A DNA stretch of 42,996 nt from Gammaproteobacteria bacterium (GCA_919902765.1 CAKKRP010000051.1:1-42996), one strand, 5' to 3'. Counted from the stretch's first letter, positions 8,501 through 29,068 are shown. The notes: generated from the letters alone by a model not told the origin. Numbers and translations: made by a program.

Positions 8501-8949
8501 TGCAAAGCAGCGCCGCGATGTTGGATTTCGGCAGTGTGACGGTAGGCGTGAGCAAGGATGTGACGCTCAGTTTGAGCAATACTAGTGATAGGGATATCAC
8601 GATCAGTGGCATTGCGATCTCGAGCATCGGATTCACTCACAATGCAACCAACACCTTATTGCCGCGCGGGTCTTCACTCGATATACGTGTGACCTACACG
8701 CCTGTTGACGCGCAACCCATCGTGGGTACATTGGCTATCAACACCGATAGCGCCCCCGCAAAAATGGAAATATCTTTGGTCGCTAACGGTGGCGGCAAGG
8801 CTGCTGCGCCGCCAAATACTAATAGTGAGAGTAAAGGGCTGTTCGGTTGCACACTGGGCACGGGTGCGAACGATCCGATGTTCCCGATGCTGCTATTGTC
8901 GGCGATGGTTGCCTTGTGGCGGCGTAGTCAAAAATCAGTGCGACGCTAG
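5578..8949 (+). CDS. Secreted M4 (thermolysin-like) metalloprotease with beta-propeller-like, ASH and CTERM regions
   Basis: The 1123-residue precursor has a signal peptide (about 1-31), an FTP/PepSY propeptide (about 110-300) and an M4 zinc-protease domain (about 310-635). The zinc motif HEMTH is at 464-468, the third ligand is Glu488 in NESFAD, and the transition-state histidine is His552 in VHANSG. This set is complete, so the enzyme should be active. A long region follows with TolB/WD40-like repeats (about 650-950). Next comes an immunoglobulin-like ASH ('choice-of-anchor D') domain beginning near LDFGSVTVG. The tail has Gly-Cys, a DPMFPMLLLSAMVAL helix and a basic RR..RR end, resembling JDVT-CTERM or GlyGly-CTERM surface-sorting signals. 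These are cut by dedicated intramembrane proteases. Thermolysin itself has far fewer residues, so the C-terminal half is an accessory extension. The ribosome-binding site TTGGAGGAG is strong. Confidence 0.92.
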   Translation: MIKPRIFNKYRVALISAWVALGVITVADATTAPSAFSARTPMVVTGLTAPAGATFTPTPRSEELHPRKSFVTSAVLQKPGASGIAQQMSALVSAQEQPQPLISNKQQAQMQDLLAQQGGQFKIHFDHRNGTPSYLEGRFAAAAGAKAKGRAGGRDTVRAFLGTHRALFKLKNPDAELKLVREETDSGKRTHLIYQQTYQGVPVWGKQLLAHLEADNTLYLVNGRYLPSPALLNTTPKLDAASALAVVTQALNAPNAEVLESELVIYPGADGQQTLAYRIDVRPSILDRWVYFVDAMTGTVVHTIHNIHAAGSTVDGGGTDSHKNAVTFKVWSENNKFYMVDPTYPSATVPADPLQSPSPSGDTYVLDAKNGDGKSLSFITSNSATSGWDEAAVNAMHNTRVVYDYYKTTHSRDSIDGEGKNLLVMIHTGSKMNNAFWTGTFMVYGDGDDAFLSQTTKCLDVAGHEMTHGVIQSTAGLIYENQSGALNESFADVFGAMVDRSNWTMGEDCTAAAPHYLRSLQDPHLGVDSQPAKMSEYKNLPATEAGDNGGVHANSGIPNHAAYLTWQNLGGDEIAKQKLEKIYYAALTLYLAPSSLFVDARRALSKAAQTIYGVVAAKAVDDAWDSVEVTSATVATPNKIGPTAADPVTGPDIMLFLSPTSVAGGQKYELYMQHMTNPASFDGPLNAGDKYLAYTRPVAYTGQNGTVVFFVGEDHNLYANAVGGVPQLVNNSGKIASIALAPNGHYFAYTTTDAADKNIHVVDLNSATETEQAWPLAPPNYQQGQVTVANTIYYADAMSFDYTGRTLVFDALNCVSTPQSVCTADQTGGYQFWSIGLMDIATGEQFYPFPSQDPAIDIGNPAFAANNSYIIAFDVINYTDPNAPFSRVLSANLDKNTAAEIISYSGVAQSGVASFWGDDTAVTVQYPSTNGNTAVGIPLNADGSGDVARAITLNDYISELPAMHRQGVRTASGGLQSSAAMLDFGSVTVGVSKDVTLSLSNTSDRDITISGIAISSIGFTHNATNTLLPRGSSLDIRVTYTPVDAQPIVGTLAINTDSAPAKMEISLVANGGGKAAAPPNTNSESKGLFGCTLGTGANDPMFPMLLLSAMVALWRRSQKSVRR

Positions 8950-9001
8950 TTGCTAGATATTCAAAAACAATTCGCAATCGAGTTCGTCGCGAGATTGAAA
9001 A

Positions 9002-9024
9002 GACGGGCGAGCGCCTCGCCCGTC
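9002..9024. terminator. Bidirectional hairpin terminator
   Basis: A perfect 10-bp stem, GACGGGCGAG / CTCGCCCGTC, closes a 3-nt CGC loop. On the left is TTGAAAAA and on the right AATTAAAT. It lies between the convergent protease (+) and large lipoprotein (-) genes. On the minus strand the hairpin is followed by TTTTCAATC, so it can serve that direction too. The position and stem support a shared terminator. Confidence 0.7.
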
Positions 9025-9102
9025 AATTAAATAGCGCTCAAGCGAAATAATTAGTCGTCCCTGAAAATCACCAACATACTGTAGTCAAGCGTGTCCGCAG
9101 TG

Positions 9103-14881: not shown

Positions 14882-15619
14882 ATGCCAGAAATCAATCATT
14901 GCGATCTTGCGGGATTATTGGCGGCAGAATCTCTCAAGGACATCGAAGAAAAAGCGTCTCATTTAGTAAATGCACTAGGCTATGATGTTTTCGTAGCGGG
15001 TGTGCAGCGTGCTGGACGAATTCATGTTGTGAGTACTTACTCGCAGACCTGGCGGGCAATCTATGACGAACAAAATTTAATGGACAAAGATCCCACCGTC
15101 CTACACGCACGCCGTTCTACCCTGCCTTTGGTTTGGCACCCCGAACTTTTTCTACAAAAAGACGCGGCGTCGTTGTTAGAGCAGTCGCGCTGCTATGGAA
15201 TTTCCAGTGGACTCTCCATACCCGTACATGGCTCTAACGGTAGCGCTGCAATGACCAGCTTTGCCTCGGGCAGGGAATTTGGTGATGAACAGAAGCGTCA
15301 TGTGCAAGAAAATTTACCTGCCTCTATGTTACTTTCGACGTATCTATTTGAGGCTATCCAGCGCGTCGGTTCAACAATCACAGGTGAAACCGGTGCCGAG
15401 GCGTCGGCAGGTGAAACCGAAATATATTTAACTCCAAAAGAAACTGAATGTCTAAAATGGTCTGCAGCGGGTAAAAGTTCTTGGGAAATCGGTACAATCA
15501 TGTCATGTACAGAACGCACAATTAATTTTCATTTTGGGAATATTATAAAAAAATTAGGCGTTTCCAACCGGCGCATGGCCGTCGCGAAGGCCATCGCTAC
15601 AAAGTTAGTCAGCATCTAA
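14882..15619 (+). CDS. luxR: LuxR-family acyl-homoserine-lactone-responsive transcription factor
   Basis: The 245-residue regulator has an N-terminal autoinducer-binding domain and a C-terminal LuxR helix-turn-helix. The invariant ligand-pocket residues known from TraR occur at matching positions: Trp57, Tyr61, Asp70, Pro71 and Trp85, with a glycine near 110. In the DNA-binding domain the conserved Glu187, Leu191 and Gly197 lie in LTPKETECLKWSAAGKSS. All nine signature positions are thus met, so it should bind an AHL. It is convergent with a luxI gene and is the likely reader of the lux boxes at 16460 and 28786. A stop codon lies in frame 6 nt before ATG 14882. The purine run GAAGG directly abuts the ATG, so translation initiation may be weak. 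Confidence 0.93.
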   Translation: MPEINHCDLAGLLAAESLKDIEEKASHLVNALGYDVFVAGVQRAGRIHVVSTYSQTWRAIYDEQNLMDKDPTVLHARRSTLPLVWHPELFLQKDAASLLEQSRCYGISSGLSIPVHGSNGSAAMTSFASGREFGDEQKRHVQENLPASMLLSTYLFEAIQRVGSTITGETGAEASAGETEIYLTPKETECLKWSAAGKSSWEIGTIMSCTERTINFHFGNIIKKLGVSNRRMAVAKAIATKLVSI

Positions 15620-15715: not shown

Positions 15716-16375
15716 TCACCCATGCATGATAGCGGCGGTGTTTAAGCGTGAATTTCGACCAAATTCTGCTTGGTTAAGTTCGATCCGGGTCTGCGCGGCC
15801 AAAAATAGGGCCGCATGTGTCACGTCGTCTATTTCTATGCTCAGCGCAACTGCACGCTCTACTCCAATTTGCCGCAGTTTACCTAAACGGGCGACGCTAA
15901 CGCCCAAACGGCGCAACATTCTTTCCAGTGCCACATTAGTTACCGTAACGTAGCGACGAATATTGTTCTGTACTGCGAACGTGTATGCCGCCTGCATCAT
16001 CAAAAAAGGAACCATGCTGGTATATCCGGCAACATGTTCTCTGCTGTTGGATTCGGTAGCAAAACGAGATAGCTCCCAGATGTCATTTGATCCGGGCGCG
16101 CAGCTTCCATCCAATAATTCAGGAAAGGTATCACGCAACATGTTGGGTCCCGTGGTTGGCAACATACGCCAGGAGCCAATGACGTTTTTCCCGCCGTCAC
16201 GTACCAATAAATAGACTGGGTTTAATAAATCATAGGAGTCGAGTTCCTGCTCATTTTCGCCGCATACTTCCCAGTTAAGTCGCTGGCGAAATACACGGTA
16301 ACGCAGGTGATGCATGTTTTGTAAATCTTCTTGAGCCAGCCCGTCATATTCGCGATGTGCAATGATTACGTTCAT
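15716..16375 (-). CDS. luxI: LuxI-family acyl-homoserine-lactone synthase
   Basis: It makes an N-acyl-L-homoserine lactone from S-adenosylmethionine and an acyl-ACP. The 219-residue protein carries every classical invariant residue at its canonical number: Arg25, Phe29, Trp35, Asp46, Asp49, Arg70, Phe84, Glu101 and Arg104. A threonine in the VTVTN strand (about 144) sits where LasI/EsaI-type enzymes favour 3-oxo acyl chains, but the actual chain cannot be predicted. The start ATG 16375 has a perfect GGAGG site 8 nt upstream. A lux box and a -10-like hexamer upstream suggest positive autoinduction. The gene lies directly behind the biosynthetic operon on the same strand, so read-through from that operon could also feed it. 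It converges with luxR. Confidence 0.96.
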   Translation of the reverse strand: MNVIIAHREYDGLAQEDLQNMHHLRYRVFRQRLNWEVCGENEQELDSYDLLNPVYLLVRDGGKNVIGSWRMLPTTGPNMLRDTFPELLDGSCAPGSNDIWELSRFATESNSREHVAGYTSMVPFLMMQAAYTFAVQNNIRRYVTVTNVALERMLRRLGVSVARLGKLRQIGVERAVALSIEIDDVTHAALFLAAQTRIELNQAEFGRNSRLNTAAIMHG

Positions 16376-16430: not shown

Positions 16431-16475
16431 ATGTTACTCATAATGGCCGTCGGGCCATACTGTCAGATCTGTCAG
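16431..16475 (-). promoter_or_regulatory. lux box and promoter of luxI
   Basis: CTGTCAGATCTGTCAG at 16460-16475 fits the CT-N12-AG lux-box pattern and differs by one base from the box at 28786. On the minus strand a -10-like TAACAT lies at 16436-16431. The spacing between box edge and -10 equals that at the operon promoter, which puts the box centre about 42-43 bp before the expected transcription start, the classical activator position. The box overlaps the stop codon of the preceding phosphopantetheinyl transferase gene. Confidence 0.8.
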
Positions 16476-17341
16476 GACAGGATATCTATCCCGCTGACGG
16501 TAAGTGGTATATTCACGCCGGAAGGGCGTATCACTTCAATTCTCGCTTGCGGTCGGGCGGAGCACATCACCGTCGCGAAATTTGGCCAGCTTTTTAGATA
16601 ATGCAACGAATGCCCACCTAATGATTTTCGTTTGCCTGATACCAATTCTATGCTGAGCGCAAATTTAGAGAAAAGCGGTAACAATTGTTCCCAACCGTCT
16701 CCAATACCGATGCCTAACATTTTGGCGAAGGCCTCCCTTTCACTCCACGCCAACGCAAATACCTGACTGCGCATTCGTGCGTCCATGTTATGATATTGAA
16801 CGATCGCGCCGGGGCCTAATATGCGTTCCGCCAATTCATCGTATGATCGCGAGCGTATTTTTTCAATATCTATGCCTATCGTAGTATCCTGTGCAATCGC
16901 GATGACTGCGTATCCATGAGAGTGGGACAGGCTGAATTCCACTCCACCACTATTAACAAGTATCGGTTTTCCCCGCGATCCATATTCAAATACGAGTTTG
17001 GCGGGGTCTTGGTGGGCGTATTCTGCGAGTACGTATCGCAGCGCGCTGCGCGTTTGTCCCCATTTGGCGCCTGCAATTAGATTGCTAATGCGAGCGAGCC
17101 GAATCTTTTCATCGTGATCCAGTAAAGTATCTTTTAATCCTTCAAATGAAGACAACACATTTGGAGATAACAGCCAAACATGGGCATTGTCGTTTAAAAG
17201 GCAAGGGACTCTGCCCACAATCGCGCAATCGCTACGTTCGGAAAAATTCATACATGTTATGCCTTTTTGTAATGCCGAACTATTCATGATTTCATATCCA
17301 ATAGTTGCATCCGCTTGCGGTCTAGAAAAACCATCGCGCAT
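16472..17341 (-). CDS. Sfp/AcpT-type 4'-phosphopantetheinyl transferase
   Basis: It transfers 4'-phosphopantetheine from coenzyme A to a carrier-protein serine, converting apo-ACP to holo-ACP. Motifs are RGKP near 123-126, FSLSHS (136-141), the Mg-binding GIDIE (156-160, with Asp158 and Glu160) and WSEREAFAKMLGIGIG (199-214, catalytic Glu203). The obvious partner is the operon's own ACP at 27399. ATG 17341 overlaps the end of the outer-membrane protein gene by 20 bp and has AGGGG 9 nt upstream. Internal ATGs at residues 19 and 31 would remove an atypical N-terminal extension. The product is 289 residues from the first ATG. Its stop codon lies inside the luxI lux box. It is the last gene of the biosynthetic operon. 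Confidence 0.9.
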   Translation of the reverse strand: MRDGFSRPQADATIGYEIMNSSALQKGITCMNFSERSDCAIVGRVPCLLNDNAHVWLLSPNVLSSFEGLKDTLLDHDEKIRLARISNLIAGAKWGQTRSALRYVLAEYAHQDPAKLVFEYGSRGKPILVNSGGVEFSLSHSHGYAVIAIAQDTTIGIDIEKIRSRSYDELAERILGPGAIVQYHNMDARMRSQVFALAWSEREAFAKMLGIGIGDGWEQLLPLFSKFALSIELVSGKRKSLGGHSLHYLKSWPNFATVMCSARPQARIEVIRPSGVNIPLTVSGIDILS

Positions 17342-18683
17342 TGAACTGAACCCCTACGCGTTCCGGTGATGCCCCGTATTGGCTGTATTTGTCGCCAAAA
17401 CGCAACCATGTCTCCACCCAATATTCCCACGTCGTAGCCACATGTTGTGTCCAACGCGCATTCAAGATGCCACTGCCGTCGCGCGTAGCCATAAGGGAAG
17501 GTTGAATATCAATATCATGCACTACTGACATACTCATTCTTAAAAAAATGTGCGTGCCGTGCGCGATCCGTAGTGATTCCATGTCGTATCCCAGATTAAT
17601 TCCGCGCGCCGATTGGTTGGTTAAATTGTCGTGAAACTTCACGACGTTTTTCCATATCTGAAATTGATCTGAATTCATCCCCCTGTTATCACGCCACAAT
17701 TCCATGACCCACGTCGTGTTTGCCTCCGTCGTAAACGTCGCACCTGCCAGCCCTCGGGCGCGAATTTGGCCGTCGTGCGCCAACCAAGGTTGGACGGGGC
17801 TCTGGTATATATAAACATCTGCTGCGCCGAGTTGATCGCCTCTATTCAGATAGACGTTTTTATGTACGGGATAGGGATTGCCACGGTTCGCAAATCCTGC
17901 GACATAAAATGACCATGCCGCCGTTGGCACATAACTTAGCGCGACGCCCCCACCGGGATTCCCGGCCTCTATATATTGAAGAACGGCTGTGGCGGTTAAT
18001 TGATCAATACTTTTACGTCCGGTGGCGACCCATTGACGAAATCCGCGATTGAATCCCGGGTTAGTTCCACCGTATTCATATGAGTAGGAAGAAATAGTGT
18101 CATCCGAATAAATAAGGCGATACGCGGACAGCGCGTTCGCATAGGTTATATTAACCATCGGGAACCCTACGAATTTACCGGCACGATCTTCAAAATCACT
18201 TCCACGTATGCCATCTTCTAAGATGTCAATCGCGTGAAAAGATTGCCCGTCATCTAACGTCAGGTTGAGTCGCCCGATCGTAAAGGATGTTTGATCCGAA
18301 AAAATATATTTCCAAGACACTTGCGGGATATCCGCCGCAAATTTATTGGCCTCGTCTGCGGTGTTTTGCCGCTTCGTGGGAATATATTTTCTTTCAGCCG
18401 TTAGACGCGTGCGTAGCCATAGAGAGCTGTAACGCATATCGATAGCCCCTGCCAATTCCGCTGTCTGTACGGGCACGCCCGCGCCATTGTCAGCGTTGAG
18501 TGCATGGTTGATCTCGCGTTGCGCGAATTGACCATATACGAACCCTGAAAATAATGGAGCCACGGGCGATTCTACGTCTTGCATTTCTTCGGCACCAGCG
18601 GTGTGGGCAATCGTCAGCGAGACACAGATAATGACTGCTGCGCTCATCTTGTTCAGGTCGTAAACGCGGCAATTCACCGCCAT
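17322..18683 (-). CDS. Outer-membrane beta-barrel protein of the lipid-export module
   Basis: The 453-residue product has a Sec signal peptide (hydrophobic AAVIICVSLTIAHTAGAEE). It then has alternating amphipathic strands rich in Tyr, Trp and Phe and ends in ARWFF, a C-terminal aromatic typical of BAM substrates. Segments such as TIGRLNLTLDDGQSFH and GGGVALSYVPTAAWSFYVAGFANRG look like barrel strands and turns. No plug, TonB box or POTRA domain is evident. It lies in an overlapping chain with LolA-like and ABC exporter genes (10-bp overlap upstream, 20-bp downstream). This suggests it is the outer-membrane terminus of the same transport route or the receptor for the exported molecule. Family not recognised. 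Confidence 0.72.
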   Translation of the reverse strand: MAVNCRVYDLNKMSAAVIICVSLTIAHTAGAEEMQDVESPVAPLFSGFVYGQFAQREINHALNADNGAGVPVQTAELAGAIDMRYSSLWLRTRLTAERKYIPTKRQNTADEANKFAADIPQVSWKYIFSDQTSFTIGRLNLTLDDGQSFHAIDILEDGIRGSDFEDRAGKFVGFPMVNITYANALSAYRLIYSDDTISSYSYEYGGTNPGFNRGFRQWVATGRKSIDQLTATAVLQYIEAGNPGGGVALSYVPTAAWSFYVAGFANRGNPYPVHKNVYLNRGDQLGAADVYIYQSPVQPWLAHDGQIRARGLAGATFTTEANTTWVMELWRDNRGMNSDQFQIWKNVVKFHDNLTNQSARGINLGYDMESLRIAHGTHIFLRMSMSVVHDIDIQPSLMATRDGSGILNARWTQHVATTWEYWVETWLRFGDKYSQYGASPERVGVQFNARWFF

Positions 18684-19432
18684 TCTCCCAACGACTCTAG
18701 CGCGTATAATTGTTTGCTGAGTGCCTTTGGAACTGTCTGTTCAAGTACCATCTCAGTGCGATTGTCGGGCCGAATGAGGTCTTTGAACACCATACGTTTG
18801 ATACCCAATCGATCGTTAATTGTCACCGGTTTATCGAATGTCACCGATTTGAAACTTTTGCCGCTTTTCAAGAAAAAGGTTGCTTCCAACGGCCGTGCAT
18901 CGACGCGTGATACCGCCAGTTGGATGTGGGGATAAACCGCCATATCGGATTTCGCAGTGAGTTCCAATAACCACGCGGCTTCACCCGCCAACTCGATTTC
19001 GGGATGCGCGCTGTACTCCGCAGTGTAGTCATCCTGCCAGCGCATGCGGCCGATATCGCCGACCGATGCCTCGCCCAATAGACGCTGCATCGGTGTAATC
19101 CGCACGGTACGCGTACTGCGCGGAAGTTTTATCCATAATCCTTCGTTAGTCATCAACATGTGTTGGCCAGCATCCGCGCCTTCCATAACGCGAATCAACG
19201 ATTTATCCGAGCCTTGGACGGCAACCTTAAAATGACTTTCACGTTCAGATTTATCACCGTGAAACTGCACCAGGCGGACATCCATAATGGCGGCGGAATA
19301 TAACTGACGAAAATCATCTGCGCGTTTAACCAATGTCTGTGCGTCAGGTGGTGCAGCATGCACCGTACTTATTGCGAACGCCGTGATCACTAAAGCACTG
19401 CAGATTCGCTTTGGATTAGGCAATGTGCGCAT
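18674..19432 (-). CDS. LolA-like periplasmic lipid/lipoprotein-carrier protein
   Basis: The 252-residue protein has a signal peptide (ALVITAFAISTVHAAPP). The mature domain looks like the 'outer membrane lipoprotein-sorting protein' group (COG2834, LolA/TP0789-like). It forms an open beta barrel that can hold an acyl chain. Supporting segments are VKRADDFRQLYSAAIMDVRLVQF, then GLWIKLPRSTRTVRITPMQRLLGEASVGDI and VDARPLEATFFLKSGKSFKSVTF. It should ferry a hydrophobic cargo from the adjacent LolCDE/MacB-like ABC transporter across the periplasm. LolA-like proteins also occur in aryl polyene clusters. GGAG lies 8 nt before ATG 19432. The gene overlaps the downstream barrel gene by 10 bp. Confidence 0.82.
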   Translation of the reverse strand: MRTLPNPKRICSALVITAFAISTVHAAPPDAQTLVKRADDFRQLYSAAIMDVRLVQFHGDKSERESHFKVAVQGSDKSLIRVMEGADAGQHMLMTNEGLWIKLPRSTRTVRITPMQRLLGEASVGDIGRMRWQDDYTAEYSAHPEIELAGEAAWLLELTAKSDMAVYPHIQLAVSRVDARPLEATFFLKSGKSFKSVTFDKPVTINDRLGIKRMVFKDLIRPDNRTEMVLEQTVPKALSKQLYALESLGEWR

Positions 19433-19449
19433 ATCAAAATCTCCAAAAG

Positions 19450-20676
19450 TTAGTTGTGATTCAACTGTTCAAGGATAGTCATACGTCTTGAAGATATCAG
19501 TGAAAGCGCTGCGGCAAGTACACCAACAATGACCATTCCCAAAAGCGTCAATCCATAGGCCGTAGGTTCTATAAATATCAATAGCGGGTAGGAGGTGGTG
19601 CGCCCGGGCGGTGGCGGCATTTCAATTCCGGAAAAATTGATGGCCAATGCCAAAACGATTGCGAGTAATAGTCCTGAAATGCCCCCAATCATGCCCACAA
19701 TGCCGCCTTCCAGGAGAAAGTTTTGGCGAATACGCAGCGCTGGAATACCGAAGGCACGCAACGTTCCTTGTTCCCTTATGCGTTCAAACAGGCTCATCAG
19801 CATCGCGTTGGATACCGACAACAACACTACGATGAGAATAATTGCGCCAAGTACGCCGAAAATATTGCTGTATAAGGTGACCACTTGTTGATAAAACGGT
19901 GCCAGGTCTATCCAACGTTTTATCTCCAAGTCAGTCAGCCGCGCGTGCAGGCCTTGCGCAACGGCGTCTGTACGCGCGGTGTCATTGAGCACCACAACGA
20001 CGCGCGATATGCGCTGCGTATCCAATAAACTTTGTGAAGTGGCCAGCGGCATCATGATCGCACGCCGGTCTAATTCGGGAATTCCGGTGCGATATATGCC
20101 AGATACGATAAGATCAATGGCATTTAGCACACCTTTTTCCGTGGTTGCTAGCACGGTCACGCGGTCGCCGGCTTTGACACCCAGTGCCCGGGCCAAATCA
20201 ACCGCGATTATGACTTTGTTTTGATCGGCTTCACTGCTGACTGGCAGGCTATCGCCATCTACTATGGCGGCAAACACACCGGAGAGGCGAGTTTCCTGTT
20301 CCGGTTCTACACCGCTTCCAACAACCGCCAGTGTACGATCACCTGCGGCGATGAGTCCCTCGAATAAAACGCGTTGCATACTAAAGCGCACGCCAGGAAG
20401 GGCGGCGGCGTTCGTCATCGCGGCGCTCGCTTGTTGCTGGCTCAATCCGTTGTCCATGGGTGTTTTTTCGAAGCCGGCAAACTGCCCTTTTGCACCGATT
20501 TGAATGTGACCCAGTTGCCCCGCAATCGTTGCTTCACGTAGACCGTGAAAAGAGGCACTCACAAAACCTGTGGCAGATAAGATCGCCGCCGTGCCCGCTG
20601 AGAAAATTAGAACCGAAAGCAGGGTGCGACGCTTATTACGCAACACATTGCGATAGGCAAACGCTAACCATTTCAT
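19450..20676 (-). CDS. FtsX/LolC/MacB-type ABC transporter permease
   Basis: The 408-residue inner-membrane protein has the MacB/LolC topology. One N-terminal helix (RTLLSVLIFSAGTAAILSATG) is followed by a large periplasmic core of about 220 residues. Three helices then carry the FtsX domain (VVLLSVSNAMLMSLFERIREQGTLRAFGI is the cytoplasmic coupling segment). This family uses ATP to push lipoproteins, lipids or peptides out of the inner-membrane outer leaflet. It overlaps its ATPase gene by 4 bp, so the two are translationally coupled. Only one permease gene is present, implying a homodimer as in MacB rather than a LolC/LolE heterodimer. Confidence 0.9.
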   Translation of the reverse strand: MKWLAFAYRNVLRNKRRTLLSVLIFSAGTAAILSATGFVSASFHGLREATIAGQLGHIQIGAKGQFAGFEKTPMDNGLSQQQASAAMTNAAALPGVRFSMQRVLFEGLIAAGDRTLAVVGSGVEPEQETRLSGVFAAIVDGDSLPVSSEADQNKVIIAVDLARALGVKAGDRVTVLATTEKGVLNAIDLIVSGIYRTGIPELDRRAIMMPLATSQSLLDTQRISRVVVVLNDTARTDAVAQGLHARLTDLEIKRWIDLAPFYQQVVTLYSNIFGVLGAIILIVVLLSVSNAMLMSLFERIREQGTLRAFGIPALRIRQNFLLEGGIVGMIGGISGLLLAIVLALAINFSGIEMPPPPGRTTSYPLLIFIEPTAYGLTLLGMVIVGVLAAALSLISSRRMTILEQLNHN

Positions 20677-21374
20677 GAATACAAAACTCCGTCGCTCAAT
20701 GTATATACCATGCGCGCACGTTTGATGACGCGCGGATCGTGTGTAGCTACCACAAAAGTGGTGCCGAGATCGTCCGTAAGCTTTACCATGAGATCGATCA
20801 AATCCTCGGTAGTGGTACCGTCAAGATTTGCGGTAGGTTCGTCCGCCAACACCAATAGCGGCTTGCGCACCAATGCGCGCGCGACTGCGACGCGTTGTTG
20901 TTGCCCGCCGGACAATTGGTTAGGGCGGTTATTTACTCGTTCCGCCAAGCCCACGGCATGGAGGACTTCTAATGCACGCTGCCTACGTTCACGCGCGGAG
21001 ATAGGTGAGGGATACAATGGCAGCTCGACGTTTTCTACAGCGGATAACACCGGTACTAGATTAAAATTCTGAAAAATAAATCCAAGATGTTCACGCCGTA
21101 ATTTTTCGAGCTCACGCTCATCGTTCAAGGCCACCGCGTTGCCAGCGAGCGTTATTTCACCCGCTGCGGGTGGATCCAACAGACCGAGTACATTTAACAG
21201 TGAACTTTTACCGCTCCCTGACGGGCCGCAGATAGCGATAAAATCTCCGGCTGCAACGTCGATATTTACGTTATTGAGCGCCTGTACCCGTGTGTCGCCG
21301 CGTTGATGGGTTTTATATAAACCGCGACCAGATATCGCTGTTGAAGTCGCTCCGTTCATTGATAGCGCGTCCAT
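20673..21374 (-). CDS. LolD/MacB-type ABC transporter ATP-binding protein
   Basis: The 233-residue ATPase shows Walker A GPSGSGKSS (50-58), the Q-loop region FIFQNFNLVPVLSAVENV, signature LSGGQQQRVAVARAL, Walker B LLVLADEPTANLD and the switch His in VVATHDPR. These place it in the LolD/MacB/FtsE subfamily that partners with FtsX-type permeases, and it overlaps that permease gene. The first ATG (21374) overlaps the preceding gene by 19 bp, and Met6 is an alternative start. All catalytic motifs are intact. Confidence 0.93.
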   Translation of the reverse strand: MDALSMNGATSTAISGRGLYKTHQRGDTRVQALNNVNIDVAAGDFIAICGPSGSGKSSLLNVLGLLDPPAAGEITLAGNAVALNDERELEKLRREHLGFIFQNFNLVPVLSAVENVELPLYPSPISARERRQRALEVLHAVGLAERVNNRPNQLSGGQQQRVAVARALVRKPLLVLADEPTANLDGTTTEDLIDLMVKLTDDLGTTFVVATHDPRVIKRARMVYTLSDGVLYS

Positions 21375-21976
21375 ATTGTGTTGGCTGTATCGGCATTCGC
21401 AAGCCGGGCCTTTTGTAGATACGTTTGGGAATTTGACGTGTCGTTCTCACGCGCCGTCAGCACTGCCAGCCAGGCGTACGCGCTCGCTTGGTGTGCCGGA
21501 CTGATGCTGGAAAATAAAGGATGATTGATCACTGCTTTAAAATCCGCTCGGGCGGTGGATCCGCGACCAAACAACTTTGGGATGCGGGCACTGGTCGTGC
21601 CGCGTACCATGCGCACCTCGATTTCCATGCGTGTACTGGCACTCTGCCTCTCCGCTACAACTGCCGCGACCCCATCATCCATCAAGTCAATCCCTTCCTT
21701 CAGGGAGCTAAGCTTACGCCACGGCAAAATGGATTCTCGCGCAATCATTGCCGCCAACGACCCACGGTACGTCATGGCCCGGCCATCCCGTGGGTGCGCC
21801 TCTGAATATTCCGACGCGAGATCAAAAGCGTGCTCTATGGTGTCATAGTCCCCTAAACGTTGGGCACTGTCGTAGGCAGCGGTAATGTTTTCCCAGGACG
21901 GATTACCGCTGCTGTTTGCCATCATACCGGCACCGAAAAATATTATTGCAGTGAAACCAGCGTATAAAAATTTCAT
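21356..21976 (-). CDS. Hypothetical exported helical-repeat (TPR-like) protein
   Basis: The 206-residue product has an N-terminal hydrophobic segment (MKFLYAGFTAIIFFGAGMMANS), either a signal peptide or an anchor. The remainder is mostly helical, with TPR-like spacing (WENITAAYDSAQRLGDYDTIEHAFDLASEYSEAHPRD...AYAWLAVLTARENDTSNSQTYLQKARLA). It overlaps the thioesterase gene by 4 bp and the ABC ATPase gene by 19 bp, firmly linking it to the export module. TPR-like periplasmic proteins often act as scaffolds, so a role in assembling the transporter is an inference. No enzymatic residue pattern was seen. Confidence 0.65.
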   Translation of the reverse strand: MKFLYAGFTAIIFFGAGMMANSSGNPSWENITAAYDSAQRLGDYDTIEHAFDLASEYSEAHPRDGRAMTYRGSLAAMIARESILPWRKLSSLKEGIDLMDDGVAAVVAERQSASTRMEIEVRMVRGTTSARIPKLFGRGSTARADFKAVINHPLFSSISPAHQASAYAWLAVLTARENDTSNSQTYLQKARLANADTANTIWTRYQ

Positions 21977-22443
21977 GTGCGTTCTCCTACTGTAGTGTGA
22001 ATTTTGCTGAAAGATTCAGTGCGGCCTCGCGCGCCAATCTGCTGGGATTTGCGCGATAGACTTCTAAGCAACTCATCCGGTAAGCGTGAAATCTGCTTGC
22101 GCCGGGCGGATACCGCGACCACATCCGCGTTTACCTTCGCAACGATATCTTGGCCGCGCACGATATCGGTACGCCAGATGCTGCGCGCGGCGCTCACGGA
22201 TTCCAATACCGTGTGTGCGATGAGTTCATCCTCCAATCGTGCCGGAGTTCGAAAAGTCGCTGTCATTTTATGCACCACCAAGAGCGTATCATGGTCATGG
22301 GCGATCGTATCGAAGCTGTACCCCTCGCCTATCATCCATTGCAAACGCGAGCGTTCGGCCAGCTCGATATAACGGCCGTGATACATGACACCACCGGCAT
22401 CGGTATCGGCGTAAGCCACTGTCTGGCGGACGATGCCATACAT
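21973..22443 (-). CDS. Hotdog-fold acyl-CoA/acyl-ACP thioesterase (4HBT/YbgC type)
   Basis: The 156-residue protein has the 4HBT thioesterase signature YADTDAGGVMYHGRYIELAER, with the catalytic aspartate most likely Asp15 and the following HGRY pattern. The family hydrolyses acyl thioesters. In this operon it probably releases the finished chain from the ACP or edits stalled intermediates. ApeK has an equivalent place in aryl polyene clusters. The start codon shares one base with the stop of the double-ketosynthase gene, and its end overlaps the next gene by 4 bp. The basic C-terminal tail (about 130-156) is extra to the core fold. Confidence 0.85.
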   Translation of the reverse strand: MYGIVRQTVAYADTDAGGVMYHGRYIELAERSRLQWMIGEGYSFDTIAHDHDTLLVVHKMTATFRTPARLEDELIAHTVLESVSAARSIWRTDIVRGQDIVAKVNADVVAVSARRKQISRLPDELLRSLSRKSQQIGARGRTESFSKIHTTVGERT

Positions 22444-24833
22444 TAATGAACCCCCTCGGCATTGGACACTATCACTGCGCTAAATTCGCCGCCGGCGCTG
22501 GTATGTAGCACTAAAATATGGCGCGGGTTCACGATGTTGCTGGGTTTTGTCTCCTGCGCCTGGGGAGGCTCGGAATGGCGGGCAAGGATCTCCGCAGCTA
22601 ACAATATATGCATCGGAAATAACGCAGAGGGTGCCATACCGGTCGCAGACGCGGCACTCACACGCGGTGGAACAGCGCGGCCAAACAACGCTTCAAGCGC
22701 GCTTGCCTCTGCCAACAATAGATTGCGTGGTCCAGTGCCCGGCAAAACTACGGCATCGATTTCTTTCGCAGTAATCTTTGCCGCTGCGAGTGCTTGGTTT
22801 GCGGCCCGTTGTAGCCCAGTACCGGAAGGATCTACACTGTCCAACAGTCCGTCTTGCGCAAGACCGATACCGCTGATAAGCGCGGCAACGCGTGCGTTGC
22901 GCGCCCTTGCAATGGAAAGACGTTCTAACAGCACTGCACCCGCGCCTTCGCCGGGATTCACGCCGGGCGTTGCCCTAAACGGCATCACCGCATCTGTGGC
23001 CAGCAATCCGATATCTTGTAGTGCACGGATCACCAGCGGGGACAGTTCGTCACCGCCTACACTGAGCGCGCGATCTTGACGACCATCCCTGACCAGCGCG
23101 TGTGCGTACGAAAATGCGGTGACGGCGCCGCAAAAAGTCGTATTAAATCCTTTGATACCAAACTCAATTGAAATTTGGCCGCCCATCGCATTCATCGTGG
23201 TCATCGGGAAATGAATTGCACTGCCAAATTGAAGTCCTTCATCGAAAATGCTGGTCATGAATTTTTCTACACTGCGTTGGGCACCGTGGGTGATACCGCA
23301 GATTAACGCGCAACGATAGGGGTCTGCAGCGATCAATGCCCGCCCACCGGCCGCGACTATCGCTTGTTCCGCCGCTAATGCGCCGGATTTAATCATCGTG
23401 GAACTGCGTGGATTGCACGGTGCCTTGACGCCTTTTAGGACTTTTTCCGCACGCCCTGCATGTACACCCCACTGGTCGTCACGTGGAAGTGGGCCGGGTG
23501 TGTTCCAGAGTCTGTCAAACAATGCTTGTGTCGTTAAACCAAAATCACCTACCGCCCCTCCACCGACTATGGCCACCGCGTCATCAAGCAAACGGTGCGC
23601 CGCCGGGCCGGCCTTGCGCGTAACGACCAGGGAAGAATTGTTACCACCGAAACCATAGTTGTTGCAGAGAAACGCGTTTACGTTATGTTTCTGCGCCTCA
23701 TTCGGGACGTAGTTGAGGGGCGGGCAACCTGCGCGGGGCGCATTGAAATGGCGGGTCGGTGGCACCAGACCTTGCTCCGCGAATAACAGCGTGACAATCA
23801 ATTCGACGACACCGGAGGCACCCAATGTGTGGCCCAAAAAGGATTTCGGAGACGACAGGGGGGTGTGATTGCCGACGACGCGGGCGGTAGCCAGGGATTC
23901 CGGGATATCATTAGCGTCGGTTCCGGTACCATGCGCCGACACGTAATCGATGTCGGAGGCAACCATACCCGCATCGGCCAATGCAAAACGCATGGCGGCT
24001 TCTACACCGCGCCCCTCGGTATCCGTTGCCGTTTCATGGTAGGCGTCGCCTGACAGACCATAGCCCCTGATCCATGCCAGGGGTTGTTTGCTGCGCTGCT
24101 GTGCGGATTCCGTACGTTCCAATATCACCACACCCGCACCTTCACCCAGCGTGATACCAGGGGGCGTGGAAAACGGCGCAGAAGGTGAAGTACTCATCGC
24201 GCGCAATGCATTGAATCCGGCAAGTATGGACGGTGATACCGTGTCCGTACCGATTACGATGACACAATCCACCTCATTGCGGATCAACCAATCAGATGCC
24301 AACCCAACTGCGGTGTTACTGCTTGCGCACGCCGAGGAAATGGTCGATTTTGGGCCTAATGCACCCACTCGTTTCGAAACCACGGAGGCCGTATGATCGG
24401 TCGAAGCGGCCGCGAGCCATGCGGCAGGTGTCTTGCCGTTATTGGCCGCCCTGAGGTGCAGGAAACTCTTTTCAATGTGTTGGATGCCGGAATGTGAGGT
24501 ACCGACAATCACGCCTACGCGTTCAGGCGCGTACCCTGCCGTCGCAAAGGCCGCTTGCGCAAGCGCTTCTTCGGTCGCGGCAATAGCGAACCACGCGCCG
24601 CGATCAAAATGGCTGCGTTCTTTTTCGGTTAGGCCAAAATCCTTGGCTTCCGGGGCAAACTCCGATACCCAATCGCTGGCCAACGCGGTGCCGTCAAAGC
24701 TCTTAACGTGGTCTATCGCATCGCCACCCGCGATAAGTGTTCGCGCCACTGCCTCGCACCCGCGCGCCACCGGCAGGCAAATTCCCATGCCAGTGACACA
24801 CACCCCTTCTGCACTTCTATATTGAGGTAACAT
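22443..24833 (-). CDS. Fused tandem beta-ketoacyl-ACP synthase (active KS plus degenerate, CLF-like KS)
   Basis: The 796-residue protein holds two FabF-type thiolase-fold domains. KS1 (about 10-405) has the full triad: Cys169 in SSACASS, His301 in AHGTGTD, and His335 in FLGHTLGASG, plus Lys330. KS2 (about 418-795) keeps a cysteine (Cys568, TFCGAVTAF) and the GGDE turn, but HGTGT has become PGTGP (698-702) and the second His motif has become ASATGMAPS. KS2 should therefore be unable to decarboxylate malonyl-ACP. An active KS with an inactive mate matches the KS-chain-length-factor heterodimers of type II polyketide and aryl polyene synthases, here joined in one chain. KS2 probably fixes chain length or stabilises the dimer. 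AGGAG lies 9 nt before ATG 24833. The gene abuts fabG-like and thioesterase genes. Confidence 0.9.
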   Translation of the reverse strand: MLPQYRSAEGVCVTGMGICLPVARGCEAVARTLIAGGDAIDHVKSFDGTALASDWVSEFAPEAKDFGLTEKERSHFDRGAWFAIAATEEALAQAAFATAGYAPERVGVIVGTSHSGIQHIEKSFLHLRAANNGKTPAAWLAAASTDHTASVVSKRVGALGPKSTISSACASSNTAVGLASDWLIRNEVDCVIVIGTDTVSPSILAGFNALRAMSTSPSAPFSTPPGITLGEGAGVVILERTESAQQRSKQPLAWIRGYGLSGDAYHETATDTEGRGVEAAMRFALADAGMVASDIDYVSAHGTGTDANDIPESLATARVVGNHTPLSSPKSFLGHTLGASGVVELIVTLLFAEQGLVPPTRHFNAPRAGCPPLNYVPNEAQKHNVNAFLCNNYGFGGNNSSLVVTRKAGPAAHRLLDDAVAIVGGGAVGDFGLTTQALFDRLWNTPGPLPRDDQWGVHAGRAEKVLKGVKAPCNPRSSTMIKSGALAAEQAIVAAGGRALIAADPYRCALICGITHGAQRSVEKFMTSIFDEGLQFGSAIHFPMTTMNAMGGQISIEFGIKGFNTTFCGAVTAFSYAHALVRDGRQDRALSVGGDELSPLVIRALQDIGLLATDAVMPFRATPGVNPGEGAGAVLLERLSIARARNARVAALISGIGLAQDGLLDSVDPSGTGLQRAANQALAAAKITAKEIDAVVLPGTGPRNLLLAEASALEALFGRAVPPRVSAASATGMAPSALFPMHILLAAEILARHSEPPQAQETKPSNIVNPRHILVLHTSAGGEFSAVIVSNAEGVH

Positions 24834-24850
24834 CTCTATTTTCTCCTGAT

Positions 24851-25663
24851 TTACCGTTTGAATCCGCCGTCTATGCGCAATGTGCTGCCCTGTAAATAGC
24901 CGGGAGACAATAGAAACACCACTGCTGACGCCACTTCTGCGACTTCGCCCATCCGTTTTAATGCAGTCGCTGCCAAAATATGGTCATACATTTCAGGCTC
25001 TAGGACGTTCACCATTTCGGTACGTATGAATCCTGGCGCGATTGCATTGACCCGTAGACCTTGTTCTCCGTAGCGCCTGCCTAGCCACTGCGTAAAACCC
25101 ACCAATGCACCCTTGCTTGTCGCGTAAGACACCTGCCCCTCTTTCCCGGAAATTCCCGCTAATGATGCTACGACCACGACCGAGGGATCGGGTTGGCGCA
25201 ACAACGCCGGAAGCGCGGCCAGCGTTAAGCGTGCCGTTCCGCCGAAATTGGCGTTTAACACCCGTTGCCAGCGCGCTGCGTCCATCGTTAAAAACGCGCC
25301 GTCATCGGTCAGGCCGGCGTTATTGACGAGCGCGTCTAAACGGCCGAAATGCGTCTCCACTTGAGCGGGTAGGTTGCGCACACTTTCTTCACTCGCCAAG
25401 TCCACGGCAAATGCTTGAACGCGTTGTTCAGAATCCATAATTCCTTCGCGCAAGGTTTGTAAAAATAAATCGGCGACGCTGGCCTCGCTACGATAAGTAA
25501 AGCCTACATTCCATCCGTCACTCACCAATTTTGTTACGATCGCACGCCCGATTCCACGTGTGCCGCCGGTAACGAGTACCGTTTTACGCAGTACCGGCAC
25601 CGCAGATGCGCCAACGCCACAATCGGCAGGTTGCAGCGTAATATTCGCTTGTTTGCTTGTCAT
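24851..25663 (-). CDS. 3-oxoacyl-ACP reductase (FabG-like SDR)
   Basis: It reduces beta-ketoacyl-ACP with NADPH. The classical SDR motifs are complete: cofactor loop VTGGTRGIGRA, VNNAG, catalytic Ser in SLAGISGKEG, the Tyr-x3-Lys pair in SYATSKGALVG, and PGFIRTEM. ATG 25663 (MTSKQANITL) is chosen because AAAGGA lies about 8 nt upstream and it follows the previous stop by 17 bp. A longer frame from 25705 would overlap that gene without a clear ribosome-binding site. From this start the protein is 270 residues, with a 26-residue N-terminal extension beyond the usual FabG start. It acts in the elongation cycle with the KS, ACP and dehydratase of the operon. Confidence 0.92.
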   Translation of the reverse strand: MTSKQANITLQPADCGVGASAVPVLRKTVLVTGGTRGIGRAIVTKLVSDGWNVGFTYRSEASVADLFLQTLREGIMDSEQRVQAFAVDLASEESVRNLPAQVETHFGRLDALVNNAGLTDDGAFLTMDAARWQRVLNANFGGTARLTLAALPALLRQPDPSVVVVASLAGISGKEGQVSYATSKGALVGFTQWLGRRYGEQGLRVNAIAPGFIRTEMVNVLEPEMYDHILAATALKRMGEVAEVASAVVFLLSPGYLQGSTLRIDGGFKR

Positions 25664-25679
25664 GAGTAGTCCTTTTGTC

Positions 25680-26357
25680 CTAGACGTTGTTTTCGGGATA
25701 GCCAATACCTACCGGCAATACCATACCCGCCAGAGGAATACCCTTGAGCTCGATAAGCGCGCGTAGAAATTTCGCAACATCAATGCTTTTTTGCGGCCTA
25801 AATTTGATGGCAAAGGCCTTCAAGTTTGTACGCGCATCTTTCCACAACGCTGCATCCAATTGCTCCGCAAGCGGCTGGACGTGCAAAGCATTCAACTTCA
25901 CGCCAAAACAAAATACTTCTTTGGCTAAGCTCTTAATGGCACCCACAAGCGCCCGCGAACGCATAGGTTGGGCGGCGACAGGGAGGTAATATTGCATGCT
26001 ATCTTCTTGTAGAAGCACCCATACCTGCCCGTCATCACGACGTGACAACATCTGAACACTGGCCTTTATCTCGCCCAAAGTACGTGCAAGATCATGTTGA
26101 ATCTTGCCAATATCCTCAGGTGTCTCTGCCACCTCAGCGCCGTCCTGCAGGCCGAACACAATGCGCTCGAAAGGCCCGTAGGCAGAATCCCATTTTAATA
26201 ATTCGTTTGGAATGTCGTTTCCTACGATATCAATTCCCGGCTCAGACTTACGAGCGTGGGTGGTAACCGAATGACCCGCTTCCGCAAGTTCCTTTGAAAG
26301 CGCTAAACCTAGCGAATGATCAGCATCTACAATAAGAACCCGTTGTTTTTTGTCCAT
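25680..26357 (-). CDS. Degenerate SDR-family protein, probable non-catalytic partner of the ketoreductase
   Basis: The 225-residue protein looks like a Rossmann-fold short-chain dehydrogenase. An N-terminal beta-strand/helix (QRVLIVDADHSLGLALSKELAEAGHSV) stands where the glycine-rich cofactor loop would be, and a later helix reads RSRALVGAIKSLAKEV. The TGxxxGxG loop is altered to DADHSLG, and the catalytic Tyr of YxxxK is absent from the aligned helix. NADPH reduction therefore seems unlikely. Being next to an intact FabG-like gene, it may form a heteromer with it. A regulatory or scaffolding role is possible. GAGGT lies about 7 nt before ATG 26357. Assignment as SDR rests on fold-like pattern only. 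Confidence 0.6.
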   Translation of the reverse strand: MDKKQRVLIVDADHSLGLALSKELAEAGHSVTTHARKSEPGIDIVGNDIPNELLKWDSAYGPFERIVFGLQDGAEVAETPEDIGKIQHDLARTLGEIKASVQMLSRRDDGQVWVLLQEDSMQYYLPVAAQPMRSRALVGAIKSLAKEVFCFGVKLNALHVQPLAEQLDAALWKDARTNLKAFAIKFRPQKSIDVAKFLRALIELKGIPLAGMVLPVGIGYPENNV

Positions 26358-26366
26358 AACTATACC

Positions 26367-27384
26367 TCAATGTAAGAGTGCGACGCCGTAATTCCACGAC
26401 GCCGTTTCTATGCCCAACACGCCGACATAACTCTCGCCGGGATGGATATTTCCACGCTCTACGGCCCTTGCCATAGCGCGAAAAATCGCCGGCGCAGGAC
26501 AATTTCCGATTTCGTGTCCAACATAGAAGCGTTTACTATCCATGCTGTCATTTCCGGCGACGCGAATCATGGAGCGATTTACCTGCGGTACGATCAAGAC
26601 ATCGATTTTATCCGCGTTCCCGTCTACCGGCCCGAGCATGTCTTTCATGGCGCGTGCCGCCACGTCCGGCAAAACGCTGCGTATGCTGCGATGGTTGTGT
26701 ATCGCGGAACCGGACGCATCCAACGAAAATCCGACGTCGCGCAAATGAAAACGCGAGGCGATATCCGCGTGTAGTACGCGCAAACCCTTTGTTTTAGGAT
26801 TCGCCTGTACGACTATCGCTCCGCCGCCATCCGCGAATGCCAGACCGTTCATCAAATTTTCACTTGATAATTTTGCATTGGCCTTTAATAAAGGTGCGAA
26901 ATACGCCGGAGAAATGCAATCCGCCGCAGTAACTAACACCGTTTTGGCGCGCCCGCTTTCAATAAGAGTACAAGCGGTGGTTAGCGCCTGCATCGCTACC
27001 GTGCAACCCCCCCCGCAAGTCCAATGTCCGAATCTCGCCTAGACCGAGTTTTCGTTGTATTTGATAAGTGAGTGGTGGCAGCCGGTCATCCGGAGTGGAA
27101 GAGGATGTAATCAGAAAATCCACTTCGCCTACCTCTACGCCTGCCTGTTTCAAAGCACGTTGCGCCGCACGCACGGACATCTCGGTGGTGCCTAAACCAG
27201 GTTCGCGGCGCTCGCCGGTGGCCGGATCAATCACGTAGTGACGTGACTCAACGCCGAAATAATTCATAAGCGTAGTGACTGGCGTCTGCAACGCGACCTC
27301 TAATTCCGCGTTAGTCACCGGCGGCCCCGGGGAATAGTCCGCGACACCGGTGATCGCGATTTCCTTGCTGTCTCTGAATGTCAC
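26367..27384 (-). CDS. KAS III-like 3-oxoacyl-ACP synthase, reading frame shifted at a G8 tract
   Basis: The gene starts at GTG 27384 (AGGAG 8 nt upstream) and reads MTFRDSKEIAITGV to TLDLRGG. A run of eight G on the coding strand (C8 at 27007-27014) throws it out of frame. With seven G it reads on as RGGCTVAMQALTTA and continues to the stop at 26367, about 338 residues, the normal KAS III length. The catalytic cysteine is the first residue after the tract. Downstream, the usual HQAN motif is PQVN, so the catalytic His is lost, while the GN of the Asn motif (IGNCPAPA) is kept. It may prime the pathway, act as an acyltransferase, or be a second chain modifier. The frameshift is a sequencing error, a real mutation or a slippage switch. 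The sequence cannot tell which. Confidence 0.8.
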
Positions 27385-27398
27385 GAATTTCGCTCCTA

Positions 27399-27704
27399 TT
27401 ATGCGACCTTGGTCAGCGCGGTTTCCGCCAAATTATTTAAAATAAAGGCGGCCAACGTACGCACGCTATGGCATGCGGATTCGATCAGATCTTTATCGAT
27501 TTCCTTGATTTGAAAGCCATACGTCTTCTCCGAACCGACGAGCAAATCAAGCGCTTCGACGGAATCCAGGCCCAACCCGGCGCTATCCAATAGCAGGTGG
27601 TCGTCACCGATATCTTCATAGGTCAACCCCGTGTCTTCCAGTTCCAGGCGCACTAATAGCAAATTACGCTTGATATGCTCGATTACTTCGCTCTCACTCT
27701 TCAT
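27399..27704 (-). CDS. Acyl carrier protein
   Basis: A small acidic carrier protein with the phosphopantetheine attachment motif GLDSVEALDLL. The modified serine is residue 48 from the chosen start. ATG 27704 is preferred to the ATG at 27710 because AGGAG sits 8 nt before it but only 2 nt before the other. At about 101 residues it is longer than typical FabA-pathway ACPs (about 78), with an extended helix I and a C-terminal tail. It carries the growing chain among the operon's KS, KR, DH and TE, and is presumably activated by the transferase at 16472. It is the only ACP in the window. Confidence 0.92.
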   Translation of the reverse strand: MKSESEVIEHIKRNLLLVRLELEDTGLTYEDIGDDHLLLDSAGLGLDSVEALDLLVGSEKTYGFQIKEIDKDLIESACHSVRTLAAFILNNLAETALTKVA

Positions 27705-27740
27705 GATCATCTCTCCTAGTTAAGTTGACGAAAGTCGCCG

Positions 27741-28280
27741 TTATACATCTATGCGCAGAACATCGCTGTTGTTTATGAACGATGCCACGGCGGCCTGCAC
27801 AATCGGTTGTTGCTCTACGTTAGCAATTGCTTGATATAAATTAATTTGAGCGCGTGCGCATCGCACGCCCTCATGATAGGCGGCGCACTTAAAGCTATGT
27901 ATGGCCCCTTTGTAATCTCCCACCGTCAATTCACCTGTGCCGCGCACGATTTTGCAATCAAAAACGATTGTTTGGTGAGGCCTTACCGTCTTATTAAACT
28001 TCGCGGTGTCCACACCGACCAAATAGCCAGGGATAATTTTTCCTGCCTGTTTATTCAAAAACAATCTGGCGGCTTGCGCCATACACTCAAGCAATACCAC
28101 GCCCGGCACTATTGGATCTCCCGGAAAATGGCCTGCAAAATACGGCTCATCCGGTCGAAAGGTATGTGTAATCCACGCGCGCCCTTGCGCCTCATCTACT
28201 ACTGCATCGTCAGCAAATAAGAATGGCGCGCGATGCGGCAAATAACTAAGTACATCAATTTTCTGTTGAACGCCCGACAT
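27741..28280 (-). CDS. FabZ-like 3-hydroxyacyl-ACP dehydratase
   Basis: The 179-residue hotdog protein has the FabZ/FabA signatures LPHRAPFLFADD and YFAGHFPGDPIVPGVVLLECMAQA. The catalytic His51 and Glu65 are both present. It should dehydrate 3-hydroxyacyl-ACP to the trans-2-enoyl form. No enoyl reductase gene was found in the operon, so double bonds may be kept, giving a polyene. Alternatively, the housekeeping reductase acts. The protein is about 30 residues longer than FabZ at the C-terminus. It follows a shorter hotdog gene lacking the histidine, and the two could form a heterodimer as reported for ApeI/ApeP. Confidence 0.92.
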   Translation of the reverse strand: MSGVQQKIDVLSYLPHRAPFLFADDAVVDEAQGRAWITHTFRPDEPYFAGHFPGDPIVPGVVLLECMAQAARLFLNKQAGKIIPGYLVGVDTAKFNKTVRPHQTIVFDCKIVRGTGELTVGDYKGAIHSFKCAAYHEGVRCARAQINLYQAIANVEQQPIVQAAVASFINNSDVLRIDV

Positions 28281-28326
28281 TTAACACCCTCCTCGACATA
28301 ATTTGAATTTCAGAATTTGAAATATT

Positions 28327-28695
28327 TTATTGGCCGTTGAATATGGTTACCGTAAAACAAAAAATGGGTGCCGCTGCTGTTTTTAATTTTACATACAATA
28401 TTAAACTGGACGGACTAGGTACCACATTCGGCAGATGCGCGTTTTCCACCCCAACCAAGTAGCCGCTGTTGTCTCCCTCGGTTTCTTCAGATGTAAGCGC
28501 GCGAAGCAGTAACCCGCTGGATTGTGCCATCGCCTCTACCAACAGGTAACCAGGAAGCCCCTGAGGATACGCATAACGATTTTGACCTTCCAAAATGGTC
28601 AAGCCGAAAGCTCCGGACTGCGTTTCACGGTTTACGGAAAATACGTCATCTATGTAGCGGAACGGCGGTTTTTGTCGTAACGAATCAATCTGCAT
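28327..28695 (-). CDS. Hotdog-fold dehydratase-like protein lacking the catalytic histidine
   Basis: The 122-residue product, first gene of the operon, aligns by eye with FabZ. KPPFRYIDDVF corresponds to the HRxPFLxxD start, and QGLPGYLLVEAMAQSS to the PxVPGVLxxEAMAQ helix, retaining Glu54. The GHFPG histidine position is Arg40 (NRYAYP), so the usual dyad is incomplete. It also stops soon after the third strand and is short for a full hotdog. It is probably a structural or substrate-shaping partner for the intact dehydratase encoded next (46-bp gap). The start at 28695 lies about 55 bp from the predicted transcription start. Confidence 0.72.
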   Translation of the reverse strand: MQIDSLRQKPPFRYIDDVFSVNRETQSGAFGLTILEGQNRYAYPQGLPGYLLVEAMAQSSGLLLRALTSEETEGDNSGYLVGVENAHLPNVVPSPSSLILYVKLKTAAAPIFCFTVTIFNGQ

Positions 28696-28756: not shown

Positions 28757-28801
28757 ATACTATGCATCGGGAGGGAAAAATGTAACTGTCAGATCTGACA
28801 G
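28757..28801 (-). promoter_or_regulatory. lux box and promoter of the biosynthetic operon
   Basis: CTGTCAGATCTGACAG (28786-28801) is a perfect 16-bp palindrome of the CT-N12-AG lux-box class. Reading leftward, a -35-like TTACAT abuts it at 28785-28780. A 17-bp spacer follows, then TAGTAT as -10 at 28762-28757. The centre of the box is thus about -42 to -43 relative to a start near 28750, the classical place for LuxR activation. The first gene starts at 28695. Confidence 0.85.
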
Positions 28802-29068
28802 CTATAGCGAAAACCAAGGCTGGAGCCGGGGCAATGAATTCTGGTCGATAAAATGTCGTAATTAATGACCTTGGCATTTATTGACGCTGGTCTTTTTGCT
28901 CAGACAAGAACGGCCAGTTGGAGTTTAGGCGTGTGGTTTTTTTTGGGATTACTGTATGTCAAAAGACAGAAAATATCGTGAAAATCATTCGTAGCGAACT
29001 GTCGATTCTACAGAAATTACGGTGGACACAAAGGTTGTCGGCTTACTTAGTATGGAATCGATATAATT
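28802..29068. other. Intergenic, AT-rich, no gene recognised
   Basis: Between the operon promoter and the end of the MFS gene only a short plus-strand frame (from 28918) occurs. It runs into the antisense of the MFS gene and shows no family motif. Nothing else was recognised. Confidence 0.4.

Follow-up and report, generated by a model that had tools for sequence, protein, structure and literature searches.

The window analysed here, a stretch of 42,996 nucleotides from a gammaproteobacterial genome (GCA_919902765.1), carries a gene cluster on its minus strand (22443-28695) whose reading frames, motifs and residues were recomputed. In order of increasing coordinates, the cluster comprises a ketosynthase fused with a CLF (KS~CLF), a ketoreductase (KR), a degenerate KR-like protein (pKR), a KASIII-like gene, an ACP, a dehydratase (DH) and a degenerate DH-like protein (pDH), the last being the first gene of the operon. 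The ACP (27399-27710; NCBIfam PRK09184-like) has Ser50 in an LDSVEAL motif. On the same strand follow a 4HBT/YbgC-like thioesterase (21973-22443), which would probably release the product, an export module (18674-21976) consisting of a small conserved protein, an ABC ATPase, an FtsX-type permease and a LolA-like carrier, and a segment (16472-18683) encoding a 453-aa protein, possibly an outer-membrane barrel, and a 4'-phosphopantetheinyl transferase. No enoyl reductase was found among the biosynthetic genes at 16472-28695. The operon combines a KS carrying Cys-His-His and a CLF without this catalytic set with discrete ACP, KR and DH genes. Judged by their sequences, these are the genes of a highly reducing type II polyketide synthase (PKS) with KS~CLF, FabG-type KR, FabZ-type DH, ACP, pKR and pDH. 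Together they appear to encode a small bacterial system that assembles an unsaturated fatty chain step by step, with a polyene on the ACP as the predicted product.

The downstream end of the cluster is occupied by a quorum-sensing pair, LuxI (15716-16375, minus strand) and LuxR (14882-15619, plus strand). The first gene of the operon is preceded, at a distance of about 90 bp, by the palindrome CTGTCAGATCTGACAG (28786-28801, within the minus-strand feature 28783-28804), and a second copy with one mismatch (16460-16475) lies about 85 bp upstream of luxI; these were the only such sites in the window, where 0.06 were expected. With its CT-N12-AG shape, the palindrome is like a las/rhl-type lux box, and the PKS operon is probably under quorum-sensing control. 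Export modules of the same kind (ABC/FtsX-permease/LolA-like/small protein) were also seen in other genera of the family, at 7874-11100 of locus L076 and 1949-5464 of L077, with no matches to PKS genes on the stretches read.

Intact and degenerate partners of the elongation enzymes

According to the preliminary description of this DNA, each elongation step has an intact and a degenerate partner (KS/KS, KR/KR-like and DH/DH-like), and the recomputed sequences confirmed this with all residue numbers. The two KS proteins were additionally found to be the halves of a single 796-aa reading frame (24833-22443), a fusion absent from that description. The KS half (23595-24833) keeps Cys169, His301 and His335, while in the alignment Pro698 and Met733 occupy the two histidine positions of the CLF half (22443-23594). 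The pairing of KS with CLF is well supported because both lie on one polypeptide, in the window and in relatives outside Burkholderia. Generic FabF matches to the CLF half were rejected as relatives. Fused CLFs have a conserved cysteine in common, although both histidines are gone; it is residue 568 in the fusion and precedes the aligned nucleophile position by three residues.

The KR (24851-25663, ATG at 25663) is a complete FabG-like SDR, as had been stated, with TGGTRGIG, NNAG, Ser, Tyr and Lys. The upstream pKR (25680-26357) has none of these except the last Gly of the Gly-rich loop; that it lacks this loop and the Tyr had been noted before. The statements on the dehydratases were also correct: the FabZ-like DH (27741-28280; Pfam FabA, 1.7e-17) has His51 and Glu65, and the pDH (28327-28695), a FabZ-like hotdog protein, has Arg40 at the His position and keeps Glu54.

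Every pDH has lost the His loop and kept the Glu. This holds for the window, Vibrio and Serratia as well as for Phaeobacter, Pelagimonas and Verminephrobacter, three genomes in which DH and pDH are fused in one reading frame with pDH as the N-terminal half. Every DH compared keeps the His, and in the DH of Vibrio and Serratia, which belong to andrimid clusters, Asp replaces Glu. Since the active sites of a FabZ-type dimer each combine a His and a Glu from opposite chains, a DH:pDH dimer would retain exactly one full site. The complementary losses (pDH without His, andrimid DH without Glu) fit such a shared site, and the catalytic Glu most likely comes from pDH. One hotdog with His and a partner with Glu and no His is, at the level of sequence, also the arrangement of ApeI/ApeP of aryl polyene (APE) synthesis, a published heterodimeric dehydratase with a single active site (PMC8041823), in agreement with the earlier statement that such pairs exist there. 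The DH/pDH pairing is thus well supported by the fused reading frames, the complementary His/Glu loss in Vibrio and Serratia and the known APE heterodimers. The model of the double hotdog was too poor for use (pLDDT 43.5). As the DH/pDH pair was also found in a Streptomyces KS~CLF cluster without pKR, it is more widespread than the pKR pair.

The same operon is present in a sister genome of the same genus, G001 (MAG record JAOUGF010000110), whose compared proteins are 80-95% identical to those of the window. The dN/dS values of the degenerate partners (pKR 0.038, pDH 0.073, CLF 0.064) lie in the same range as those of the intact ones (KR 0.061, DH 0.049, KS 0.030), all being approximate as dS, at about 0.7-1.9, is near saturation. 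Rough as these values are, all cluster genes compared, the degenerate ones included, are clearly under strong purifying selection. Because this range is shared and the same losses recur in other lineages, the pattern goes beyond chance or decay.

Two lesions absent from the preliminary description were found in the window. The pDH stops at a TAA (28327-28329) where G001 has GAA, and thereby loses the last hotdog beta-strand; the codons downstream still spell this strand. The KASIII-like gene between ACP and pKR (26367-27384) is split into two reading frames (26959-27384 and 26367-26993) by a frameshift in an 8-G run (26993-27010) at the active-site Cys codon, where G001 reads through as RGGCTVAMQ from non-homopolymer sequence. 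This frameshift could be a homopolymer sequencing error, decay or slippage/phase variation, whereas the pDH lesion is a substitution. Together, the lesions reflect either a cluster decay that has begun in this strain or assembly errors, and with pDH and KASIII broken in this assembly, the strain may make no product. KASIII itself, in a further observation absent from the preliminary description, keeps Cys and Asn, whereas its catalytic His is replaced by Pro in the window and in G001 alike, which makes a starter-loading acyltransferase more likely than a condensing enzyme.

The pKR family, its fold and its distribution

All 11 pKRs aligned have lost the Gly-rich loop, NNAG and the Ser-Tyr-Lys residues, which make up the catalytic SDR set (TGxxxGxG, NNAG, Ser-Tyr-Lys), while all 11 neighbouring KRs have kept them. 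The residues replacing Ser-Tyr-Lys differ in each lineage, and the family has its own invariants: Asp119, Lys142, Ser143, Lys146, Glu147, Gln161-Pro162 and Leu179-Lys180. No Pfam family assigns pKR. The pKR profile matched FabG/SDR chains of the PDB with E-values of 2e-6 to 1e-4. The structural search of the pKR product that had been proposed earlier (AF2 model, Foldseek, VIA-align) returned an SDR fold: the model (pLDDT 80.4, pTM 0.82) shows an SDR Rossmann fold shorter by about one unit, Foldseek placed MabA/FabG first (E 8e-11), and the best VIA-align match, tied with many FabGs, was BbsCD (7pcs_A, Z 21.2, rmsd 2.7, 212 aligned). Homology and predicted structure thus agree, and on these grounds pKR is a rare SDR family without Pfam assignment. 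Compared over five lineages, helix aF is as conserved in pKR as in KR (mean identity 0.52 vs 0.53), and the C-terminal strand is conserved as well. The NADPH half has drifted in pKR (b1 identity 0.16 vs 0.64 in KR), and helix aE is poorly conserved (0.14).

A tblastn search of plasmids with pKR found Burkholderia stagnalis (42% identity) and Vibrio coralliilyticus (29%), and a profile scan of a genome collection of 84,980 species found nine loci: the sister MAG, three in Burkholderia, and one each in Vibrionales SWAT-3, Serratia marcescens MSU97, a Phaeobacter MAG, Pelagimonas phthalicica and Verminephrobacter aporrectodeae. Among 185 relatives, matches were limited to the same genus. The profile gave no match beyond the window's own genome in 398 genomes of the phylum and none in two families (345 and 348 genomes), scans in which about eight candidates per genome were scored and misses are possible. 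Viral contigs scanned with pKR gave no match. Weak matches (E about 1e-2) in Streptomyces and Burkholderia cenocepacia were set aside as ordinary SDRs, and the B. cenocepacia sequence, when read, had all SDR motifs. In the profile search, no pKR accompanied the KS~CLF fusions that occur on plasmids of Streptomyces and Priestia, which means that a pKR cannot be predicted from the fusion by itself.

The order ACP-pKR-KR-KS~CLF is found in Vibrio, Serratia, Phaeobacter, Pelagimonas and Verminephrobacter, and in the window KASIII stands between ACP and pKR. In the relatives outside Burkholderia, pKR lies directly upstream of KR and touches or overlaps its gene. The Burkholderia loci have individual genes for KS and CLF, and their pKR follows KR, TE, DH and ACP, thus adjoining ACP three genes from KR; no pDH was detected in these loci. 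The Burkholderia loci L081, L087, L088 and L089 are clusters combining pKR, KR, DH, KS and CLF, and the annotation of L081 adds genes for a diiron oxygenase, an iron-containing redox enzyme, an aldolase and an acyl-CoA dehydrogenase.

The SWAT-3 and MSU97 loci are andrimid clusters named in PMC5216899. In V. coralliilyticus, this cluster is found again in another strain, with an aminomutase alongside. The order ACP-AdmB-AdmC-AdmD with homologous proteins was found, the window pKR, KR, KS and CLF matching loci L082, L090 and L093. By gene position and published names, the Vibrio and Serratia pKR is therefore identified as AdmB of the andrimid cluster. The role of AdmB was stated to be unknown in 2016 (PMC5216899), and in 2024 AdmB was annotated as hypothetical, with AdmE and AdmG as dehydratases (PMC11264596). 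For AdmB, we propose the role of a partner without catalytic activity that works with the KR AdmC.

A proposed polyene synthase of paired enzymes and its alternatives

The likely explanation of the locus, which we hold with reasonable though not full confidence, is a polyene synthase of the kind that makes the acyl chain of andrimid, in which KS~CLF, DH/pDH and KR/pKR would be asymmetric enzymes. On the one KS~CLF chain, KS would condense and CLF would shape the tunnel. DH and pDH would form a hotdog heterodimer with a single working site, His coming from DH and Glu from pDH. KR would carry out the reduction within a hetero-oligomer, most likely tetrameric, to which pKR, having no NADPH or catalytic site, would belong as an obligate structural or docking subunit. 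Since the operon has no enoyl reductase, a polyene would result from repeated cycles, which the thioesterase would release and the ABC/LolA-like module export.

The preliminary description had made all three activities heteromers that shape a defined chain. This fits the cluster of the window, where the KS/CLF and DH/pDH pairings are well supported and a KR/pKR heteromer is plausible, its binding being inferred. It does not hold for all relatives: no pDH was detected in the Burkholderia loci, and a pKR is missing where Streptomyces and Priestia have KS~CLF clusters. Shaping of the chain is probably not the role of every degenerate partner either, considering the catalytic Glu that pDH most likely gives. 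That an active and an inactive SDR can pair has a precedent in BbsCD of anaerobic toluene degradation, a heterotetramer with inactive pseudoenzyme SDR subunits (doi 10.1111/febs.16216, as cited in PMC10818641). The earlier claim that a pseudo-KR partner is new was consequently too broad, also because the pseudo-KR belongs to the AdmB family already named in andrimid clusters; for polyketide or fatty acid synthases, no description of such a partner was found in the freely accessible literature searched.

The pairing of pKR with KR has to be weighed against a pKR that does not bind KR and is linked to it by the operon alone, as an SDR-derived scaffold, a docking protein for ACP or KS~CLF, or a chaperone. 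SDRs are usually dimers or tetramers, and the interface elements of these are helices aE/aF and the C-terminal strand. The conservation of pKR sits in such elements, and pKR directly adjoins KR in the relatives outside Burkholderia, both of which speak against a separate scaffold; the correlation of pKR and KR distances (r 0.97) would arise between any pair of genes inherited together. However, helix aE, which makes up the remaining half of the SDR four-helix interface, shows little conservation in pKR; this tempers the interface argument, and the Burkholderia gene order places pKR beside ACP and away from KR. On balance, we consider the scaffold unlikely, while giving it some weight.

A further explanation, that the degenerate genes are functionless, decaying duplicates, draws on the premature stop in pDH and the KASIII frameshift in this genome, but pKR, pDH and CLF have dN/dS values of 0.04-0.07 when the two species are compared, G001 is intact at both lesions, and pKR occurs in several bacterial lineages with invariant residues of its own. 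This explanation is thereby largely refuted for the family and left with a very small probability. Just as improbable is a new catalytic role of pKR or the binding of another ligand: the family-specific invariants from Asp119 to Leu179-Lys180 could be read in this way, yet there is no Rossmann nucleotide motif, the Ser-Tyr-Lys site is replaced differently in each lineage, and the invariants on aF fit an interface.

The polyene synthase with paired enzymes can be extended, more tentatively and at somewhat less than even chances, to a scheme in which AdmB/pKR is the obligate inert half of a heterotetrameric ketoreductase unique to this polyene-synthase branch. The three iterating enzymes would then be pseudo-symmetric, and their inert halves would dock each other or the ACP and keep the chain from fatty acid synthesis. 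If true, this would explain the role of AdmB in andrimid. A family without Pfam assignment gains a likely identity and partner, and AdmB a proposed role. Half-dead partners have been known for ketosynthases and dehydratases; one type II PKS branch probably has them for the ketoreductase too, a reductase so far treated as a generic, interchangeable FabG. Should the KR depend on a particular partner, pKR must be included whenever such clusters are reconstituted in vitro or transferred as pathways.

Comparison with known systems

Among the closest known systems is the andrimid synthase (Pantoea, Serratia, Vibrio), which, like the window, has ACP, pKR (AdmB), KR (AdmC), KS~CLF (AdmD), DH (AdmE) and pDH (AdmG), with the order A-B-C-D shared. 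The window differs in the additional KASIII, thioesterase and LolA/ABC export module, in the position of pDH and DH upstream of ACP and in its DH, which keeps the Glu that is Asp in AdmE. Moreover, neither an aminomutase nor the beta-phenylalanine and Val-succinimide NRPS/PKS genes were found adjoining the window PKS genes examined.

The APE synthase (ApeO/ApeC, ApeI/ApeP, ApeQ) shares with the window a KS-CLF pair, a FabG-type KR and LolA/LolB-like export genes (PMC8041823), and the DH heterodimer with one site would be the same in both. In APE, KS and CLF are separate genes, unlike the fusion of the window, and the KR ApeQ is described without a degenerate partner. The window DH also scored just 17.2 bits against PF22818 (ApeI), below the Pfam cut-off of 28.5.

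BbsCD, the (hydroxybenzyl)succinyl-CoA dehydrogenase, is a heterotetramer of active and inactive SDRs, an association that for the window pair is predicted from the adjacency of the genes. BbsCD was the best structural match of the pKR model, in a tie and with 7pcs chain A being possibly either subunit. BbsCD is catabolic and acts on a CoA ester, not ACP-dependently, and pKR is shorter (225 aa). The human mitochondrial HSD17B8/CBR4, whose structure 4cql was among the structural matches of the pKR model, is a heterotetrameric ketoacyl-ACP reductase of a dissociated type II fatty acid system; both of its subunits keep the SDR catalytic motifs and, unlike pKR, are not degenerate.
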